This document shows positions 41,540-49,525 of a DNA stretch of 64,000 nucleotides, piece after piece (position 1 is the stretch's first letter; the number at the start of each line of letters is the position of its first letter). Location of the stretch: positions 496,001-560,000 of the forward strand of contig NZ_LWBP01000001.1 of assembly GCF_002078015.1 (NCBI RefSeq), given 5' to 3'. The DNA comes from Niastella populi. GTDB taxonomy: Bacteria > Bacteroidota > Bacteroidia > Chitinophagales > Chitinophagaceae. Position numbers and translations under genes: made by a program. The notes under the pieces are model-generated. The model searched no databases, had not been told where the DNA came from, and saw nothing but the letters and a program-made list of their open reading frames with translations.

Positions 41540-42760
41540 ATGAGCACGTTTTTAGACTTGCAAAACGGCTGGTACAACGGCTTCACACAGGCAATGGGGC
41601 AAAATGTAAATGCATTTCAGATCATTGAACCGGCGCCGCCGATCGCCAGCGGAGCGGCCGCCAATTCTACATTATGGGCTTATTATAATAACATTCCACC
41701 ATTATCGCTTACGCAGCAGTTTATGGCCAGTGGCGGCAACCAGTTTTACAGTAATTACAGGGAATTGATGTCGGCCCTGGTGCCTTCAAGGAATATCGAT
41801 GTGCAGGGTGATATCGGCGCTGATAATTTCAAGAGATGGCAGCGGTATGTTCAGAACCTGGCTACATTCCCCAGTATGAACCAGATCCCTACCTTATTCA
41901 GGAACTGGGCTATGATCAATGCGCCAAAAGTTGCCAATATCGGTTCTTCAGATTACGCAGCTATTTTACTTGACCCTATTGCTACCGCTCAAAATGAGCT
42001 CACACTTATTTACACCGATGTGAACGGGCTTCCGGTTCCTTTCAACTGGAGCCTCAATTACGATGATATGACCAATCAGTTGAAGGGCGCCAACTCAAGA
42101 AATATCAGCTTCGATAGCAATAGTATGGATACCAACGTGAGCACCGCATGGACAAAAGGATCCAATGCTGGTTTCTTCGGGTTGTGGGGCGGCAGTACAA
42201 CTACTTCTTCTATAAGTGAGCAGTTCGCTGCCAGCCATGTAACGGTAAACGCAACGTTTACGAATGTGCTGGTGTTTGCCAATACACCGGGTTTGTGGTA
42301 TAATTCAGGCGCTATGGGACTGGCCTTTGCCAACAAGACCGGCAATCCCTGGAGCCCGCAGTCGTCCATCAACTGGGAGAATACTTTCGGTGGTAATGGC
42401 AACCTGCAACGTTTTGCTGCCAATCTTATCATTGCGGCGGGTATGACCGTTACCGTAAAATCCGACGCTGTTTATTCTACGTTAGACCAGCAAACCATTA
42501 CCTCCAGCGGTCATTCGGGGTTCTGGCCATTCTATTCCGGTTCCAGCGGCAGTTCGGTAACCAATACCGCCACATTCGATCAGCAGGGGCATATGACTAT
42601 CACAACCACCAGCATAGCCGGGGTACCGGTGGTACTTGGCGCCAATATACTTTCTGTATCACAATTCGTAGGGCATTCCGCAGCTCCGGCAGCCGCCATG
42701 TTCTCTGCAGCGAAGAGCTTCAAAGCTGAAAAGTTAGCACTGGCTGACGAAATGGCCTGA
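41540..42760 (+). CDS. Unrecognised 406-residue protein, Ser/Thr/Asn-rich
   Basis: I do not recognise this protein. It has no signal peptide or lipobox, begins MSTFLDLQNGWYNGFTQAMG, and is low in charged residues and rich in Ser, Thr, Asn, Gly and aromatics. Residues about 1-170 look helical. Residues 170-375 look beta-rich, with alternating patterns (SHVTVNATFTNVLVFANTPG, GHMTITTTSIAGVPVVLGAN) and a Gly/Ser-rich turn HSGFWPFYSGSSGSSVTN. The C-terminus returns to a basic helix. An amphipathic, beta-rich protein with no leader could be a pore-forming or lectin-like toxin or a contractile-injection cargo, but nothing proves it. It is a single gene closed by a terminator. Confidence 0.7.
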   Translation: MSTFLDLQNGWYNGFTQAMGQNVNAFQIIEPAPPIASGAAANSTLWAYYNNIPPLSLTQQFMASGGNQFYSNYRELMSALVPSRNIDVQGDIGADNFKRWQRYVQNLATFPSMNQIPTLFRNWAMINAPKVANIGSSDYAAILLDPIATAQNELTLIYTDVNGLPVPFNWSLNYDDMTNQLKGANSRNISFDSNSMDTNVSTAWTKGSNAGFFGLWGGSTTTSSISEQFAASHVTVNATFTNVLVFANTPGLWYNSGAMGLAFANKTGNPWSPQSSINWENTFGGNGNLQRFAANLIIAAGMTVTVKSDAVYSTLDQQTITSSGHSGFWPFYSGSSGSSVTNTATFDQQGHMTITTTSIAGVPVVLGANILSVSQFVGHSAAPAAAMFSAAKSFKAEKLALADEMA

Positions 42761-42876: not shown

Positions 42877-43281
42877 TCAAACACTACAATACTTCTGCAT
42901 CAGCATTTTGATCATCTCTTTGAAACCTTCAAATGAATCGGGTTTGGTGATGATCTGGGTGGCGCCGATGCGGAAACACTCGTTCGATAAACGGCTGTCG
43001 TTATAGGTTGAGTAGATCACGACCGGAATATGACTGAACCGGTCGCTTTTTTTGATGAGCTCCAGCGTTTCCTTTCCATTGAGCTGGGGCATGTTCTGGT
43101 CAAGCACCACCAGGTCGGGCAGGTGAGGGGCGCCCTCCAGCGCCTGCATTATTTGCACGCCGTTGTCTACCGCATCGAAATGGATATTGCTGTCTGCGAT
43201 CAATGCCTTAACGATCTCGGTAAAGATCATTTTATCATCTTCATCATCTTCAGCCAGCAGTATTCTTTTATGATTGATCAT
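42877..43281 (-). CDS. Single-domain response regulator
   Basis: A 134-residue CheY-like receiver without an output domain. The acidic pocket is LLAEDDEDD (Glu11, Asp12, Asp13), the phosphorylated Asp61 lies in VLDQNMPQLNG, the Thr/Ser switch region is VVIYST, and Lys113 is in IITKPDSF. Its start overlaps the stop of the CheB/CheR kinase by 4 bases (ATGA type), so it is co-translated with it and is probably phosphorylated by that kinase. This receiver subgroup (Rcp1-like) is commonly paired with phytochromes. Confidence 0.93.
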   Translation of the reverse strand: MINHKRILLAEDDEDDKMIFTEIVKALIADSNIHFDAVDNGVQIMQALEGAPHLPDLVVLDQNMPQLNGKETLELIKKSDRFSHIPVVIYSTYNDSRLSNECFRIGATQIITKPDSFEGFKEMIKMLMQKYCSV

Positions 43282-46200
43282 TCGTTATCTGGTTTGTTGG
43301 ATGATTGTACCAGCGGCAGCAGGATCGAGAAAACCGCGCCTTCGCCTTTCCGGCTGTTTGCCGTAATAAGCCCGTCATGTTTCTCCACTATCTTTTTCAC
43401 GATCGACAGGCCAATGCCCGTACCCTCGAATTTATCTTTTGAATTCAGGCGCTGGAACAGGTCAAAGATACGTGTCCTGAACTGTTCATCGAAGCCGATG
43501 CCATTATCCTTTACTTCTATATGGCACCAGGCCCCGTTTTCATCGGGCGCCGCGGAAAAGGATTTCTCATTTACCCGCCATGCGGTGATGGAAATAACCG
43601 GCGCTACAGTTGCGCGGGTGAATTTGAGCGCATTGCCAATGAGGTTCTGGAACACCTGCTGAATATGCGGTTTAATCACTTCCAGTGCGGGCATCTCCGA
43701 TACCGTTATCTCTGCATTCTTTTCCCTGATAACCATTTCAAAATCTTCGCGTACATCCCTGATGATCTGCGCTACATCTGTTTTTTCGAAACCCGAGAAA
43801 TCGCTGGAAAGCTTCGAGAAATGCAGGATATTGTTCACCAGGGCTTTCATGCGCATGGCAGATTGCATGATCTTCCCAAGGTACACCACGGTGTCGGCAG
43901 GCAGATCGTTTTCATGCCGGTCTTTCACCATTTTGGTAAGCATATGGATCTTGCGCAGCGGTTCCTGCAGGTCGTGGCTGGCCACCGAAGCAAATAATTG
44001 CAGATCGTGATTGCTCGATTCCAGTTCGAGGTTCATTGTCTGTAGCTGTTCGGTACGCTGTTTCACTTTTTCTTCCAGCTCTTCGTTCATGCGTTTTATC
44101 TTCTGTTCTGCTTTGCGCAGGGCGGTAAGGTCGAGCATGGAGCCCAGCATGCGGTAAGGTACGCCGAATTCATTGTGCAGAATGTAACCCCTGTCGAGCA
44201 CATTGGCATAATCGCCATCTGCTTTCAGAAAGCGGTATTCCTGGCTCCACTGGTTGCAGTTATCGTGAATGGCGGTATGCACGCTGTTTTTTACAGCCTG
44301 CCGGTCACTGGGATGCACATGTTGCAGCCACTCTTTACGCGTCATTATGGTTTCTTCATAACCGAATGTTTTGCGGAAGGCATCGCTCCACCATACCTTG
44401 TCCACGGTAAGGTCCCAATCCCACAGCGCATCGTTGGTGGCGCGGGCTACCAGCCTGAAGCGTTCTTCACTGAACGAGAGCTCGCGGGTGCGATCTTTTA
44501 CTTTATCTTCCAGCTCTTTATTGAGTTTGCGAAGATTTTCCTTCACTTCGTTCAGTTCGCTGTAGTTCCTGCGGATCTTGTGAACCGCTTTCTTTTTATC
44601 GGTAATGTCGGTAAACGTTACCACAAGCCCTTCAGGCATTTTAGCTGCCGTCAGTTCAAACCACATATCCATGTCGTCCAGCATGAGGTCGCGGTGCAGT
44701 TGGGTGTCATCCAGCGCAACCGATAAATAATCCCCAAAAAGTTCGGGGGTGCTGATGACAGGCGCGGCGCTGCGCAGGCTTTTGCCCGTGAGCGGCCCGT
44801 CGCCGGCGCCAAACCATTGCTGCGCTTTTTCGTTTGCCGCATCTATCACAAAATCAATGGTCTTTCCGCGAACGTCTGTAACGGTATGCAACGCAAAAAT
44901 GGCGCTGGTAGTGGCATTGAATACGCTGCGAATGATATTGTTCAGGTTGGTAATGGTAGTGATGTCAACGAAGGTGATGATGATGCCGGCGTATTTTTTC
45001 TCGCGGGTGATATAGGGCATAATACGAAGCAGGAAATTCTTTCCCTGCTGCAGGGTCACCTCTTTTTCCACTACCGTACGGTTGCGTTCTACATTCCTGA
45101 TATCATCGAGCAACTGGTTGTATTTGAAATTATTCGAAATATCGGAGAACGGCCGGCCCAGGTCAGAGTCGATCAGGTTGATGATCTCTGTTGACGCCGG
45201 ATTGAACTTTCGAATGTTCAGGTTCGTATCGAGGAAGATCTGTGCAATGTTTGTACTGCGGAAATAGTTGTTCAGGTCGTCGTTGAGTTCTACCAGTTCC
45301 TTTATCTTAAGCTGGTGCTCGGTGTTCAGCGTATACAGTTCTTCGTTCAGCGATTGCAGTTCTTCATTGGAGCTTTGCAATTCCTCGTTCGAAGAAAGCA
45401 GTTCTTCGTTCGAGCTTTGCAGTTCTTCGTTGGCGGTTTCGAGGTCTTCTACCGCGAGCTGCAGGCTGTTTTTGGTTTCGGCCAGTTCCGCTTCAAGGTT
45501 GCGCACATAATCATAGTCGGTTTCCTGATCAGGCGATTCGGGAAGGCGTTCGGTTTGTATAACGGCCCTGTGAAACATTACCAGCGTGTAATCGTGGCCG
45601 GTTGCGGTTACCGAAGGCTTCACCAAAACGTTCACGGCGCGGGTATTGTCGCCTTTTCCAAACACCACATAGTTGAGGTGTACAGGTTTATTGTTCTTCC
45701 ATGCCTTGCGTACTTCCCGGTTCACGACAATGGAAAGGTCCTGTGGCAGCATTCGCACCAGGTTCAGGTTGAGCATTTTTTTAGGCAGGGAAAGCAGGTT
45801 CTCGTAATTGCCCATGGTTTCATGGATCTCGAAGTTGCGGTCGACATAAAAGGCAATGAAACCGAGGTCTTCGAGCAGGGCCGTGCGCATCTCTTTCCAG
45901 AGGTCTTTCTGCCCTTTGGTGCCCACATCTACATGGCTGGAATGGCTGTCGCGCGGCATTCTTACGGGCGTGAAATTATCGCTGAAGCTTACCCGCTGTT
46001 TTACGTCGGCCAGTTTTTTGAAGATCTTCCACTTCATGCTTACCTGCTGCATGGAGCTGCTTTTGCTGAACGGCGGGTTTTCGCTGGGGCCAAGGAAAAG
46101 AAACCCGTCTTTGTTCAGTGAAAATTGCAGCATGGCGTAGATCCTGTCCTGCAGCACGCTGTTCATATAAATAAGCATGTTGCGGCAGGTAACCAGGTCG

Positions 46201-47411
46201 TTCTTGATAAAGGGCGGGTCCTTGGTGATATCGTGGCGCGCGAAAACGATCTGTTTGCGCAGCCGTTGTATAATGAGCCAGCCCTTCGACTTCTTTACGA
46301 AATATTTTTCAAGCAGGTCTTTGGGTACATCGTTTTCGATAGTAAAAGGGTAGAGGCCGTTTGAAGCGATATCGAGATTGGCCGCATCGATGTCGGAAGC
46401 AAATATCTTTATATCGATCTCTTTGCCGGTTTGCTCAAGCACCTGGTCAATGGCAATGGCAATAGAGTAGGCTTCTTCACCGGTGCTGCAGGCAGAAACC
46501 CAAACTTTCAGCTGCTCGCCGCTTTCTTTGGAGGCGAGCAGTTCGGGCAGCACTTTTTCAGAAAGCACTTTATAAGCATCCGTATCGCGGAAGAACCTGG
46601 TAACGCTGATGAGGAAATCATGCGCCATTTCCCTGCATTCTTCGGGACTGCTTTGCAGCAGTTTCAAAAAATCTTCCGGTTCTTCAATGCTGTGCTGCAT
46701 CATTCTCTTATTGATGCGCCGCAGAATGGTAGGCGTTTTATAATAATGGAAATCGTGCCCCGCGTTCTTGTTGATCAGTTCGAAGATCTGCAGCAGGGTT
46801 TTTTCATCGGGCTCTTTGGCCCTGATATGTTGTTCGGTTTGGAAAATTTCTTTTACGATCGCTTCGGCGATGCCGGAAGGTGTGTCTACCACATCGGCAT
46901 AACCGGAAGCCAGGGCGCTGTTGGGCATGCCGTCGAATTTGGCCGATGAAGGGTCCTGCACCATTACACAACCGCCATTCTCTTTTATGGCGGCAATGCC
47001 CCGGGTGCCGTCTGTACCGGTTCCGGAAAGTATTACGGCGATCGCTTTTTCTTTTTTCTCAACAGCCAGCGAATGAAGGAATACGTCTATGGCGTTGTTG
47101 GGGCCTTTTTCAATGACTTTATCGCTTAACATCAGTTTCCCCTTCACCATACGGATCTGTTTGTTGTTGGGGATCACATATACACAGTTTTCCGTCACCG
47201 GCATATTATGGGCCGCTTCCAGCACTTTCATGTGGGTTCTTCTGCCCACGAGATCAACCAGCAGGCTTTTGTAATCGGGCGAAAGATGCTGGATCACTAC
47301 AAACGACATATTGCCTGTCTGCGGCATATGGTCAAAGAATTCCTGGATAGCTTCCAGGCCGCCTGCAGAAGCCCCTACGGTTATCACATAATGTTTACGG
47401 GTTGCTTTCAT
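43278..47411 (-). CDS. CheB-CheR-PAS-histidine kinase fusion protein
   Basis: 1377 residues. Residues 5-190 are a CheB methylesterase with an intact triad: Ser15 (GASAGG), His42 (QHLSP) and Asp134 (GTGTDG). Residues about 205-480 are a CheR methyltransferase (RFFRDTDAYKVL, VWVSACSTGEEAYSIAIAID, NDLVTCRNMLIYM). Residues about 640-720 are a long coiled coil of SSNEELQ heptads, followed by three PAS domains (about 720-840, 850-970, 1010-1120). The kinase core has His1146 in ASHDLQEPLRKI, then an ATPase domain with IGNALKF, DNGIGFD and GTGIGLSIVKK. No receiver is fused; it is the next gene. It lies 4 bases after the phytochrome gene, implying that it receives the light signal. Confidence 0.95.
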   Translation of the reverse strand: MKATRKHYVITVGASAGGLEAIQEFFDHMPQTGNMSFVVIQHLSPDYKSLLVDLVGRRTHMKVLEAAHNMPVTENCVYVIPNNKQIRMVKGKLMLSDKVIEKGPNNAIDVFLHSLAVEKKEKAIAVILSGTGTDGTRGIAAIKENGGCVMVQDPSSAKFDGMPNSALASGYADVVDTPSGIAEAIVKEIFQTEQHIRAKEPDEKTLLQIFELINKNAGHDFHYYKTPTILRRINKRMMQHSIEEPEDFLKLLQSSPEECREMAHDFLISVTRFFRDTDAYKVLSEKVLPELLASKESGEQLKVWVSACSTGEEAYSIAIAIDQVLEQTGKEIDIKIFASDIDAANLDIASNGLYPFTIENDVPKDLLEKYFVKKSKGWLIIQRLRKQIVFARHDITKDPPFIKNDLVTCRNMLIYMNSVLQDRIYAMLQFSLNKDGFLFLGPSENPPFSKSSSMQQVSMKWKIFKKLADVKQRVSFSDNFTPVRMPRDSHSSHVDVGTKGQKDLWKEMRTALLEDLGFIAFYVDRNFEIHETMGNYENLLSLPKKMLNLNLVRMLPQDLSIVVNREVRKAWKNNKPVHLNYVVFGKGDNTRAVNVLVKPSVTATGHDYTLVMFHRAVIQTERLPESPDQETDYDYVRNLEAELAETKNSLQLAVEDLETANEELQSSNEELLSSNEELQSSNEELQSLNEELYTLNTEHQLKIKELVELNDDLNNYFRSTNIAQIFLDTNLNIRKFNPASTEIINLIDSDLGRPFSDISNNFKYNQLLDDIRNVERNRTVVEKEVTLQQGKNFLLRIMPYITREKKYAGIIITFVDITTITNLNNIIRSVFNATTSAIFALHTVTDVRGKTIDFVIDAANEKAQQWFGAGDGPLTGKSLRSAAPVISTPELFGDYLSVALDDTQLHRDLMLDDMDMWFELTAAKMPEGLVVTFTDITDKKKAVHKIRRNYSELNEVKENLRKLNKELEDKVKDRTRELSFSEERFRLVARATNDALWDWDLTVDKVWWSDAFRKTFGYEETIMTRKEWLQHVHPSDRQAVKNSVHTAIHDNCNQWSQEYRFLKADGDYANVLDRGYILHNEFGVPYRMLGSMLDLTALRKAEQKIKRMNEELEEKVKQRTEQLQTMNLELESSNHDLQLFASVASHDLQEPLRKIHMLTKMVKDRHENDLPADTVVYLGKIMQSAMRMKALVNNILHFSKLSSDFSGFEKTDVAQIIRDVREDFEMVIREKNAEITVSEMPALEVIKPHIQQVFQNLIGNALKFTRATVAPVISITAWRVNEKSFSAAPDENGAWCHIEVKDNGIGFDEQFRTRIFDLFQRLNSKDKFEGTGIGLSIVKKIVEKHDGLITANSRKGEGAVFSILLPLVQSSNKPDNE

Positions 47412-47415
47412 TTCA

Positions 47416-48930
47416 TTATGCCAGTGGTTCGGGATTTATCAATTCATACATGAAGCTGCGCAGGTTATCCGCAGCCATTGTTTCTTCCTGCAGCCAGGGT
47501 TTCGAAAATCCTTTCACATGTTCCTGCCACAGTTTAAAAGAGTGGCGCGGGTGGTAGATGCGCGGATCATTGTCGAAAAATATGCGTTCTTCCGGGTTGC
47601 CGCCCCAGCTGGTAGTGCGAATGAATTCTTTGCGGAACAGGATGACGTATTCATCCTGCGCCGCCTGGATCGGGATCACGAGGATACCGCTGGCGATTTC
47701 CTGGTATTCCGACGCAATATCATAGATGCCCGACAGCGAGTCGGTGTACCAAACCTTACGCAGTTGTTTCAGGTGAAGCCAAAGCATCAGGTCTTCCAAC
47801 TGGGAGGCATCGGGCACATCGCCGGCCGACCAGGTTTTATTCTTATAAGTAATTATCACGCCCTGGGCGCCGAACAGGTCCATTACACCCGGTTGCTCCT
47901 TCAGCAGGCTTTTAATGAGGTCTTTACTTTGGTAAATGTTCTCGATAAGCTGTGTGTAAAGGCTGTTGATGCGCGCGCTGAGGTCGAGGAACTTCTGGTG
48001 GTGCAGCAGGTTGATTCGTGCTGAAATAACGGTCGACAACAATTCCAGCACCGTGCAAAGCTGGCTGTCGATGCGTCTTGCCGTTTTATGATGACAGGCA
48101 ATGAGGCCCCACAAATTGCCGTCTTTCAAAAGCCTTACCGACATGGAGGCCATAACGTTCATGTTCCTGAGGTATTCCACATGCACCGCCGCCACCCCGC
48201 GGAGATTGCATTCCGACATGTCGAGGAAAGAATTGGTAATGGGATTGATCACGGGGTACAACTTCACCGGTTTGAATTCCCTGTTGGGGATGAACCGGTA
48301 AGGGTTCTTCTGGTACATGTCGCGTGCGGGTTTGGGAATATCCGATGCCGGGAACGTGAAGCCGAGATACGATTCCATATCCGGTTCCATTGCTTCCGCC
48401 AGCACGTTGCCGTTCCAGTCGCGGTCGAATGCATAGATCATTATTTTATCAAAACCGCTGATCGCTTTCAGTTCTACGGCGGCGATGTTACATACTTCCT
48501 GAATATCGGGCGCCGTTTCAATTTTGCTGATAGAATTTCGGAGCGACTGGTACAGGGCGGTGAAAGATGCTTCGGTGCCTTCTGCCGGCTGGTTCTCCAT
48601 TTCCACTATCACCATCTGGTCGTATACATGCAACATGGTATAATAGTGTTGCCCGTTCAATTCCCACTGTGTGGTGTATTTGCCGTTTCCTTTTTCAAGG
48701 TGTTCGTGCAATACCCCGAGGGCAGATGTGCCGATGACATCCTGTATGTGTTTCCCCACCAGGTTCCTGAATGGGGTTTGAAACATGGCGGCAGCGTTTT
48801 CGCCAAGCTGTTCAATGTTGAGTGTTTGCCGGTCGAGCACAAGCAGGATCCCGTACTCCTGTATCGTATTGATGATGTGAATGGGTATATTTCCGCAAAA
48901 TTCCGAGTCGTATTTAGAAAACTGGCTCAT
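47416..48930 (-). CDS. Bacteriophytochrome photosensory module (PAS-GAF-PHY) without kinase domain
   Basis: 504 residues. The PAS domain starts SEFCGNIPIHIINTIQEYGI; Cys12 is at the place of the biliverdin-binding Cys of bacteriophytochromes. The GAF domain has FPASDIPKPAR (Asp197, Ile198, Pro199) and LRGVAAVHVEYLRNMNVMAS, with His250 and Tyr253, both chromophore-pocket residues. The PHY domain has TTSWGGNPEE and the tongue motif PRHSF (461-465) with SKPWLQEE. The protein ends about 20 residues after the PHY spine helix, so the usual histidine kinase is absent. A 17-base overlap with the heme oxygenase gene and a 4-base gap to the CheB/CheR kinase gene tie the three together. Confidence 0.95.
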   Translation of the reverse strand: MSQFSKYDSEFCGNIPIHIINTIQEYGILLVLDRQTLNIEQLGENAAAMFQTPFRNLVGKHIQDVIGTSALGVLHEHLEKGNGKYTTQWELNGQHYYTMLHVYDQMVIVEMENQPAEGTEASFTALYQSLRNSISKIETAPDIQEVCNIAAVELKAISGFDKIMIYAFDRDWNGNVLAEAMEPDMESYLGFTFPASDIPKPARDMYQKNPYRFIPNREFKPVKLYPVINPITNSFLDMSECNLRGVAAVHVEYLRNMNVMASMSVRLLKDGNLWGLIACHHKTARRIDSQLCTVLELLSTVISARINLLHHQKFLDLSARINSLYTQLIENIYQSKDLIKSLLKEQPGVMDLFGAQGVIITYKNKTWSAGDVPDASQLEDLMLWLHLKQLRKVWYTDSLSGIYDIASEYQEIASGILVIPIQAAQDEYVILFRKEFIRTTSWGGNPEERIFFDNDPRIYHPRHSFKLWQEHVKGFSKPWLQEETMAADNLRSFMYELINPEPLA

Positions 48931-49525
48931 ACTTGTCGATCCATACTTTGAATTTTAAAAAAGTTTGCCTGGCTGTTTCGGCTGTTGCTTCCTGATCTTC
49001 TTTTCGGGTAAGTGCAAGCAGATAAGTGCGGAATTTCTTCCACATTTCGAGCGCTTGTTCCCCATAACAATTGAAAAAGGAAAATCCTTTTCCTGCAGGA
49101 AGATCCGGCAACTGCGACCTGATCATGTTCGCGGTGATCACTCCACCCAGTGTCGATCCTTCCAGCACGTAAGCTGCGCCCAGTGCGCGTGCATAGCTGT
49201 CGATCACCGGTGTTTTCACCTGTACCGGTTGCCATTGGCTGTCACCGCCAAGGTCCCTGATATCCTGTAAAAGCGCATTGGCTTTTCGCCGTTGTTCAAT
49301 ATCGGGGATACGCTCATTTTTCAAATATTGTTCCATTTCAGTTTCGAGGGAATGGTAGTACCCATGGAACATCCTGAGAAGGTGTATGTATTGTTGCCGG
49401 TTGCGAATTCTTTTAATGATGCCTGCCAGCTTTTTTTCGAGGTCGGCGTGTTCTGTCTTTGTGTGCAATTTTATAAATTCCGGAAATGTGAGGTCTTCCA
49501 CTGCTGCAATTTTTTTGCGGCACAA
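48914..49525 (-). CDS. bphO: Biliverdin-producing heme oxygenase
   Basis: A 203-residue all-helical protein. FIKLHTKTEHADLEKKL holds the likely heme-ligating His26, and LGAAYVLEGSTLGGVITA is the conserved distal helix of bacterial BphO proteins. The enzyme cuts heme to biliverdin, CO and iron. The start is not ATG: TTG at 49523-49525 as called, or GTG eight codons later. No in-frame ATG lies upstream near enough. The gene overlaps the phytochrome start by 17 bases, so chromophore synthesis and apoprotein synthesis are coupled, as in other bphO-bphP operons. Confidence 0.92.
   Translation of the reverse strand: MCRKKIAAVEDLTFPEFIKLHTKTEHADLEKKLAGIIKRIRNRQQYIHLLRMFHGYYHSLETEMEQYLKNERIPDIEQRRKANALLQDIRDLGGDSQWQPVQVKTPVIDSYARALGAAYVLEGSTLGGVITANMIRSQLPDLPAGKGFSFFNCYGEQALEMWKKFRTYLLALTRKEDQEATAETARQTFLKFKVWIDKYEPVF

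Follow-up and report, generated by a model that had tools for sequence, protein, structure and literature searches.

Kinase-less phytochromes of Chitinophagaceae are paired with CheB-CheR histidine kinases that carry a candidate methylation helix

Bacterial phytochromes are best known as single proteins in which the light sensor is joined to a histidine kinase. A locus of Niastella populi (assembly GCF_002078015.1, contig NZ_LWBP01000001.1) raises the question of where a phytochrome sends its signal when its own chain stops after the sensor and the next gene encodes a kinase that carries both chemotaxis adaptation enzymes, CheB and CheR. The window, i.e. the whole stretch of 64,000 nucleotides analyzed here (contig positions 496,001 to 560,000), contains four minus-strand open reading frames (ORFs) coding in order for a heme oxygenase, a phytochrome, a CheB-CheR-PAS-histidine kinase (hereafter CheBR-HK) and a single-domain response regulator, spaced by a 17-base overlap, a 4-base gap and a 4-base overlap. 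This layout, given in a preliminary description of the DNA, matches the ORF list exactly, and the domains named there for all four proteins are returned by Pfam, which was used for domain calls on the window proteins; NCBIfam profiles were also run. The phytochrome (504 aa, 47416..48930, minus strand; 317 bits to 9jry) has the domain order PAS_2, GAF and PHY with no output domain beyond PHY, and the kinase (1377 aa, 43278..47411, minus strand) is encoded on its own ORF, so that sensor and kinase are separate proteins, as had been claimed. The phytochrome is the single PHY match in this 8.6 Mb genome. Our comparison of related genomes identifies these two genes as the conserved core of the locus.

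A family survey with PHY across 394 Chitinophagaceae genomes returned 65 matches in 59 genomes. Sixty-four neighborhoods were compared, with the window standing for its own locus; up to 9.5 kb were searched on either side of each phytochrome and genes were typed by profiles seeded from the window. The 65 phytochrome genes comprise 28 kinase-less (497-558 aa) and 37 kinase-bearing (728-901 aa) representatives. CheBR-HK directly follows the phytochrome in 26 of the 28 kinase-less cases versus 0 of the 37 kinase-bearing ones; none of the latter has CheB-CheR anywhere in the searched stretch, an absence that is weaker for several that lie on short contigs (e.g. L077, 4.5 kb). Fisher's exact test gives p = 4e-16 for the difference, a value that ignores kinship; as the kinase-less phytochromes largely form one clade, the counts reflect one origin that was retained and not 26 independent events. 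The pairing of phytochrome and CheBR-HK is beyond chance. At one locus, L051, a kinase-less phytochrome is followed by a 795-aa PAS-kinase with no CheB-CheR. Locus L081 contains a heme oxygenase gene and no adjoining kinase gene, and the sole CheB match in that genome is a 200-aa frame.

Outside the family, a phylum-wide draw gave PHY matches in 40 of 395 genomes (48 matches, 46 above the cut-off). Only three of these 46 frames are shorter than 600 aa: the window, one from genome G004, which was already in the family set, and one from G646, which belongs to another family and whose short phytochrome is likewise followed by CheBR-HK. At 16 further loci outside the family, covering 17 of the 42 other matches, all 17 phytochromes are kinase-bearing and none has CheB-CheR nearby. 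A Hymenobacter plasmid considered as a second split system was set aside: two overlapping pieces are found where a relative has one gene and were taken as a broken gene, in a comparison that covered the two annotated records among 4 of 132 matching ones.

Thirty-one intact pairs, some closely related to each other, could be assembled. In all of them phytochrome and CheBR-HK (termed linked when a phytochrome gene lies beside it) are adjacent on one strand, with gaps of -17 to +60 bases. The gene immediately upstream is a heme oxygenase in 21 of the 31, and the one immediately downstream is a receiver in 15; anywhere in the compared stretch, heme oxygenase is found in 26 and the receiver family of the window in 18. 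All other flanking families are limited to at most 7 pairs, so the conservation is not general synteny. The conserved core is thus two genes, kinase-less phytochrome and CheBR-HK. Of the four-gene order whose conservation in relatives the preliminary description proposed to check, this core is kept in all 31 pairs, whereas heme oxygenase and receiver vary. An accident of gene order confined to the window is ruled out by the family counts together with the intact pairs. Six named relatives all have the phytochrome followed by CheBR-HK, with L002 repeating L054 and L006 in pieces; the Pedobacter locus L007 has the pair without heme oxygenase and without a same-strand receiver. L002 was dropped from counts and trees as a duplicate of L054, judged by equal contig and gene lengths and not by sequence comparison; L159, which repeats the L086 locus, was dropped from most counts, although L159 and L086 are both kept in the phytochrome and CheB-CheR trees. 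At L006, both genes lie in order as fragments, through frameshifts or sequencing error; neither the pair counts nor the trees of phytochromes and CheB-CheR regions include this locus, while its kinase piece is part of the kinase tree.

The two genes also share much of their history. In the tree of CheB-CheR regions, the linked proteins all fall together (100/100), with 11 unlinked ones outside, two of which come from the N. populi genome itself; the kinase-less phytochromes form a single clade as well, with three kinase-bearing (fused) phytochromes nested within it. For 31 loci, the phytochrome and CheB-CheR trees have 24 of 28 splits in common (r = 0.83, a value reached in 0 of 2000 permutations). 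Among 27 loci with a heme oxygenase, 21 of 24 splits are common to the phytochrome and CheB-CheR trees, and the tree of heme oxygenase, a short and less resolved gene, agrees with each partner in 11 of 24. A distant version of both genes is present in two congeneric genomes (L059 and L062), and the Pedobacter locus L007 and L133 of G646 group with L041 and L073 of the family in both trees, a pattern that fits the two genes moving together.

A further sign of partnership comes from proteins in which the two activities are joined. In the fused phytochromes L067 and L079, the PAS-kinase tails match the C-terminal end of CheBR-HK with up to 49% identity (390 residues), while in the fused phytochrome L058 the related part is the kinase alone (41-46% identity over about 255 residues). 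The separate kinase of L051 aligns with the CheBR-HK of L038 over 643 residues at 45% identity. In a kinase tree of 110 rows, these four group with 27 CheBR-HK kinases (93/92, not a starred branch). Since the tails and kinases of the fused forms are related to CheBR-HK, this phytochrome type and this PAS-kinase end have been joined in a single polypeptide, which usually marks partners, and the fusions support signaling in trans between the phytochrome and the separate kinase, as judged from sequence. All three fused-phytochrome genomes hold CheB-CheR fusions elsewhere; in a CheB-CheR tree whose row L174 has 29% of columns filled, those of G068 and G267 lie just outside the linked clade and that of G223 among the unlinked ones. 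The G068 and G267 proteins (L203 and L204), CheB-CheR-histidine kinases nearest to the linked clade, have no adjoining phytochrome gene, the phytochrome of these genomes being fused to a kinase.

The window phytochrome has the PAS-GAF-PHY order of the bacteriophytochrome photosensory module. Its Cys12 (48895..48897, minus strand) is expected to attach biliverdin, a role that we carry over from bacteriophytochromes; the Asp of the PASDIP motif, His250, His280 and the PRxSF motif presumably contribute to bilin binding. Each of these, the N-terminal Cys included, is kept in 33 of 33 aligned kinase-less rows. The bilin-binding motifs are thus intact, and the bilin-binding capacity ascribed to the sensory protein holds at the level of residues. 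The NCBIfam model for BphP kinases, NF041576, gives the protein 279 bits against a curated cut-off of 1040, no kinase being covalently attached. Directly before PASDIP, all 33 kinase-less phytochromes have Phe (F193 in the window, 48352-48354) and 48 of 51 kinase-bearing ones have Tyr, a difference that may tune color or dark reversion.

CheBR-HK has the Pfam order CheB, CheR_N, CheR, PAS_10, PAS_4, PAS_3, HisKA and HATPase_c. Its CheB methylesterase domain (residues 10-185, 46857..47384; all coordinates of CheBR-HK parts are on the minus strand) starts at residue 10 and lacks the receiver that comes first in E. coli CheB. The CheR_N and CheR methyltransferase domains (residues 208-462, 46026..46790) are 33% identical to E. 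coli CheR over 226 aligned residues. Alignment places S15, H42 and D134 at E. coli CheB S164, H190 and D286, and R275, E313 and N411 at E. coli CheR R98, E129 and N231; we take these to be catalytic residues, and all six are invariant in the 31 linked proteins. PAS_10 (residues 713-818, 44958..45275), PAS_4 (853-940, 44592..44855) and PAS_3 (1006-1091, 44139..44396) are followed by HisKA (1138-1202, 43806..44000), whose H1146 is invariant, and HATPase_c (1248-1368, 43308..43670), which keeps the N, G1 and G2 box residues. With CheB, CheR and kinase in one chain and their catalytic motifs in place, the protein is a CheB-CheR fusion histidine kinase, and the preliminary description was correct in assigning both adaptation enzymes to the kinase. 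Downstream, the single-domain response regulator (134 aa, 42877..43281, minus strand, Pfam Response_reg E 1.6e-18), overlapping the kinase gene by the 4 bases mentioned, completes the two-component parts of the locus at the sequence level.

What would CheB and CheR act on? A profile search with PF00015 gave 0 chemoreceptor matches in the N. populi genome, so the chemoreceptor part of chemotaxis adaptation is missing and CheB-CheR need another target. PF00015 is also absent from 27 of the 28 other genomes with a kinase-less phytochrome, and among 147 drawn family genomes one has a match above the cut-off and three more have weak matches. The lone exception among the 28 is G253, with two chemoreceptor genes in a row on contig 1 (304978-307119). 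On contig 198 of the N. populi genome, locus L134 contains separate CheB and CheR genes together with hybrid kinases and receivers.

A candidate target lies within CheBR-HK itself. Between CheR and PAS_10, a coiled-coil-like region (residues 640-705, 45297..45494) contains the best conserved 35-residue stretch of the protein: across the 31 linked proteins, the five best conserved segments of this length all begin at residues 661-666. Here, five heptad-spaced Glu-Glu pairs (662/663, 669/670, 676/677, 683/684 and 690/691; 45339..45428) form a proposed methylation helix whose ten Glu residues are invariant in 31 of 31. Synonymous variation is found at 35 of 35 invariant coil codons, which points to selection on the protein and rules out conservation through DNA-level repeats.

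The coil was scanned for Glx-Glx pairs flanked by small residues, using a four-small-flank rule that we assume to describe methylation sites (3 of 4 flanks at a stricter, 2 of 4 at a looser setting). The same scan of E. coli Tar gave 294/295, 301/302, 308/309 and 490/491, which we take to be its known methylation sites, at 4 of 4 and two further places at 3 of 4; in E. coli Tap, two places scored 4 of 4. Tar 294/295, 301/302 and 308/309 have the same seven-residue spacing as the window coil. At the stricter setting, runs of at least three are found in all 31 linked proteins and runs of at least two in 2 of 1072 other ORFs (at least 200 aa), one of which is part of the fragmented L006 kinase. 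At the looser setting, runs number 5 or 6 in all 31 linked proteins and 4 to 7 in all 14 unlinked full-length CheB-CheR fusions. In 83 kinases that lack CheB-CheR, which include L051 and the fused forms, no run reaches three and one kinase has a run of two; these 83 are the kinases met in the compared loci, many of them phytochrome kinases, and not a general sample. Two fusions of the N. populi genome (L135 and L136) were part of the stricter scan and lie outside the looser counts. The window coil thus combines a Tar-like register with flanks at 2-3 of 4, and has no Ala at the place given by the consensus in PMC8396549. For methylation of a kinase helix there is a precedent in Bacillus cereus, where RsbM methylates the kinase RsbK on its signaling helix as a negative regulator (PMC4574943).

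Based on these observations, the following pathway can be proposed. Heme oxygenase would make biliverdin, as its family suggests, and the PAS-GAF-PHY protein would bind it and switch between red and far-red forms. Having no output domain, the phytochrome would act in trans on the neighboring CheBR-HK, which would hand phosphate to the single-domain receiver where one is present. The fused CheR would add and CheB remove methyl groups on the Glu-Glu helix of their own chain, such that prolonged light would reset kinase output. Confidence differs between these parts. Phytochrome and CheBR-HK are very probably functionally paired; pairing, co-inheritance and fusions together argue that the phytochrome signals to its neighbor. 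The receiver is the likely phosphate target of the kinase, and we lean towards a split red/far-red two-component system that combines this pairing with adaptation of some kind by CheB-CheR. That CheB-CheR methylate CheBR-HK in cis on the coil is a tentative suggestion. The light-sensing pathway with separate sensor and kinase suggested by the preliminary description is thus backed by pairing, matching gene histories and fusions, albeit with two genes as the conserved unit and not four, while the methylation-based memory suggested there remains plausible and gains a specific candidate substrate. More broadly, and still more tentatively, we hypothesize that CheB-CheR fusion kinases at large could write, read and erase methyl marks on a chemoreceptor-like helix of their own, and that red light could reach the present clade through a separately encoded phytochrome; the result would be an array-free photosensor, soluble and with adaptive memory, in bacteria that lack chemoreceptors.

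Several observations weigh against this proposal. The matching trees partly mirror shared species history, which the permutations leave in. Locus L081 has a kinase-less phytochrome with no adjacent CheBR-HK, and no signaling gene follows; a directly downstream receiver is limited to the 15 pairs given above. CheB-CheR is missing from the L051 kinase and from the three fused forms and thus appears dispensable for coupling. The linked proteins L073, L007, L041 and L133 carry a different kinase lineage in the kinase tree (HisKA and HATPase_c by Pfam). Taken together with L051, this indicates that the kinase end can be exchanged under a constant phytochrome-CheB-CheR front and that, with the kinase kept constant, CheB-CheR can be absent. 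The coil pairs score 3, 3, 3, 2 and 2 of 4 where the four Tar sites all score 4, and the conservation of the coil could be structural. The latter point belongs to an alternative in which phytochrome and CheBR-HK do form a light pathway, CheB-CheR modify another protein and the coil is only a stiff helix for dimerization or signal passing. One leucine per heptad, as in dimer coils, fits this alternative, as does the apparent persistence of coupling without CheB-CheR at L051, and the separate CheB and CheR genes of L134, in a genome without a chemoreceptor, mean that other targets may exist. However, the coil is conserved above every other 35-residue segment with all ten Glu invariant, and Glu-Glu runs of three or more are confined, in the scan above, to proteins with CheB-CheR, being absent even from L051 and the fused forms; we consider this alternative unlikely.

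Two other explanations appear far less probable still. Operons may contain functionally loose neighbors, and phytochrome and kinase might simply be co-transcribed without direct contact, with the phytochrome acting elsewhere or serving as a pigment sink; strict pairing with kinase-less phytochromes, shared history and the natural fusion of this phytochrome type with a PAS-kinase tail of related sequence make this very improbable. Alternatively, an ordinary fused bacteriophytochrome kinase could have split, with a CheB-CheR protein acquiring its kinase end. Homology between phytochromes with and without a kinase does extend across PAS-GAF-PHY. Further, nesting of the fused forms within the kinase-less group is favored but not forced by an approximately unbiased (AU) test (p = 0.128, for a group named after the tree had been inspected), so they may fall outside it and the change between fused and split forms may have run in either direction, a point that also counts against our proposal. 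The CheBR-HK kinase branch (93/92) sits in an unresolved fork beside 24 of 51 canonical phytochrome kinases and four other kinases, yet none of the 51 falls inside it and the remaining phytochrome kinases are further away. Derivation of the partner kinase from a phytochrome kinase is disfavored on these sequence grounds, and we give this scenario very little credence. Our preferred explanation is a phytochrome that would signal to a separately encoded kinase with its own candidate methylation helix.

The arrangement can be compared with several known systems. With canonical bacteriophytochrome histidine kinases it shares the PAS-GAF-PHY module with its Cys, PASDIP, His and PRxSF residues, and heme oxygenase and receiver neighbors are common to both, whereas here the kinase is encoded separately, belongs to another branch and carries CheB-CheR. 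The 14 unlinked CheB-CheR fusions likewise have CheB, CheR and the Glu-Glu coil (14 of 14), with a kinase in 11 of 14, but it is the linked set that forms its own clade (100/100) with a phytochrome gene directly upstream. RsbK/RsbM of B. cereus resembles CheBR-HK in bringing together a methyltransferase and the signaling helix of a sensor kinase; RsbM is a protein distinct from RsbK and lacks a methylesterase counterpart (PMC4574943), while CheBR-HK has both CheR and CheB in the chain of the kinase itself, with a phytochrome as the separate sensor. Sensory rhodopsins and their Htr transducers, described as 2:2 complexes (PMC6798134), also pair a separate light sensor with a methylatable signaling partner, methylatability being only proposed for CheBR-HK; tuning by CheB and CheR is suggested by analogy (PMC5812497). 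They differ in consisting of a membrane rhodopsin and a chemoreceptor; here, a kinase and a soluble phytochrome occur in a genome that has no chemoreceptor. Ppr of Rhodocista centenaria likewise ties a bilin-type photosensor to chemotaxis proteins, but is a single fused photosensor kinase that binds CheW, and the abstract of PMC2993699 mentions no CheB-CheR fusion. Short LOV proteins are photosensors without a covalent effector and are presumed to act in trans (PMC6798134), but sense blue light through flavin. CheR and CheB are absent from the main text of the signaling-helix paper PMC1592074, and CheB from the text of the photoreceptor-kinase review PMC6798134. A literature search, with most subscription journals beyond its reach, returned among the matches listed no title or abstract opening on the pairing of phytochromes with CheB-CheR kinases or on CheB-CheR fusions that methylate themselves.

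The heme oxygenase at the head of the operon (203 aa from TTG, 48914..49525, minus strand) is recognized by Pfam (Heme_oxygenase, E 1.9e-12) and scores 39 bits to HemO (1j77). Its start is uncertain, with a TTG at 49525 and an in-frame GTG 24 bases further inside. At the other end, a plus-strand gene for a 406-aa protein (41540-42760) faces the operon; neither Pfam nor NCBIfam returns a match for it at E 0.001. A Bacteroidota promoter pattern had 0 matches across the entire window.

The conserved two-protein phytochrome, its natural fusions and a version lacking CheB-CheR make contact and adaptation separable for testing. Red light is proposed as the input for a clade of CheB-CheR fusion kinases, and a testable substrate helix can be named for CheB and CheR enzymes where chemoreceptors are missing. 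If true, the system would be a compact adaptive photoreceptor of possible use in optogenetics, and the logic of self-methylation would extend to CheB-CheR fusions at large.

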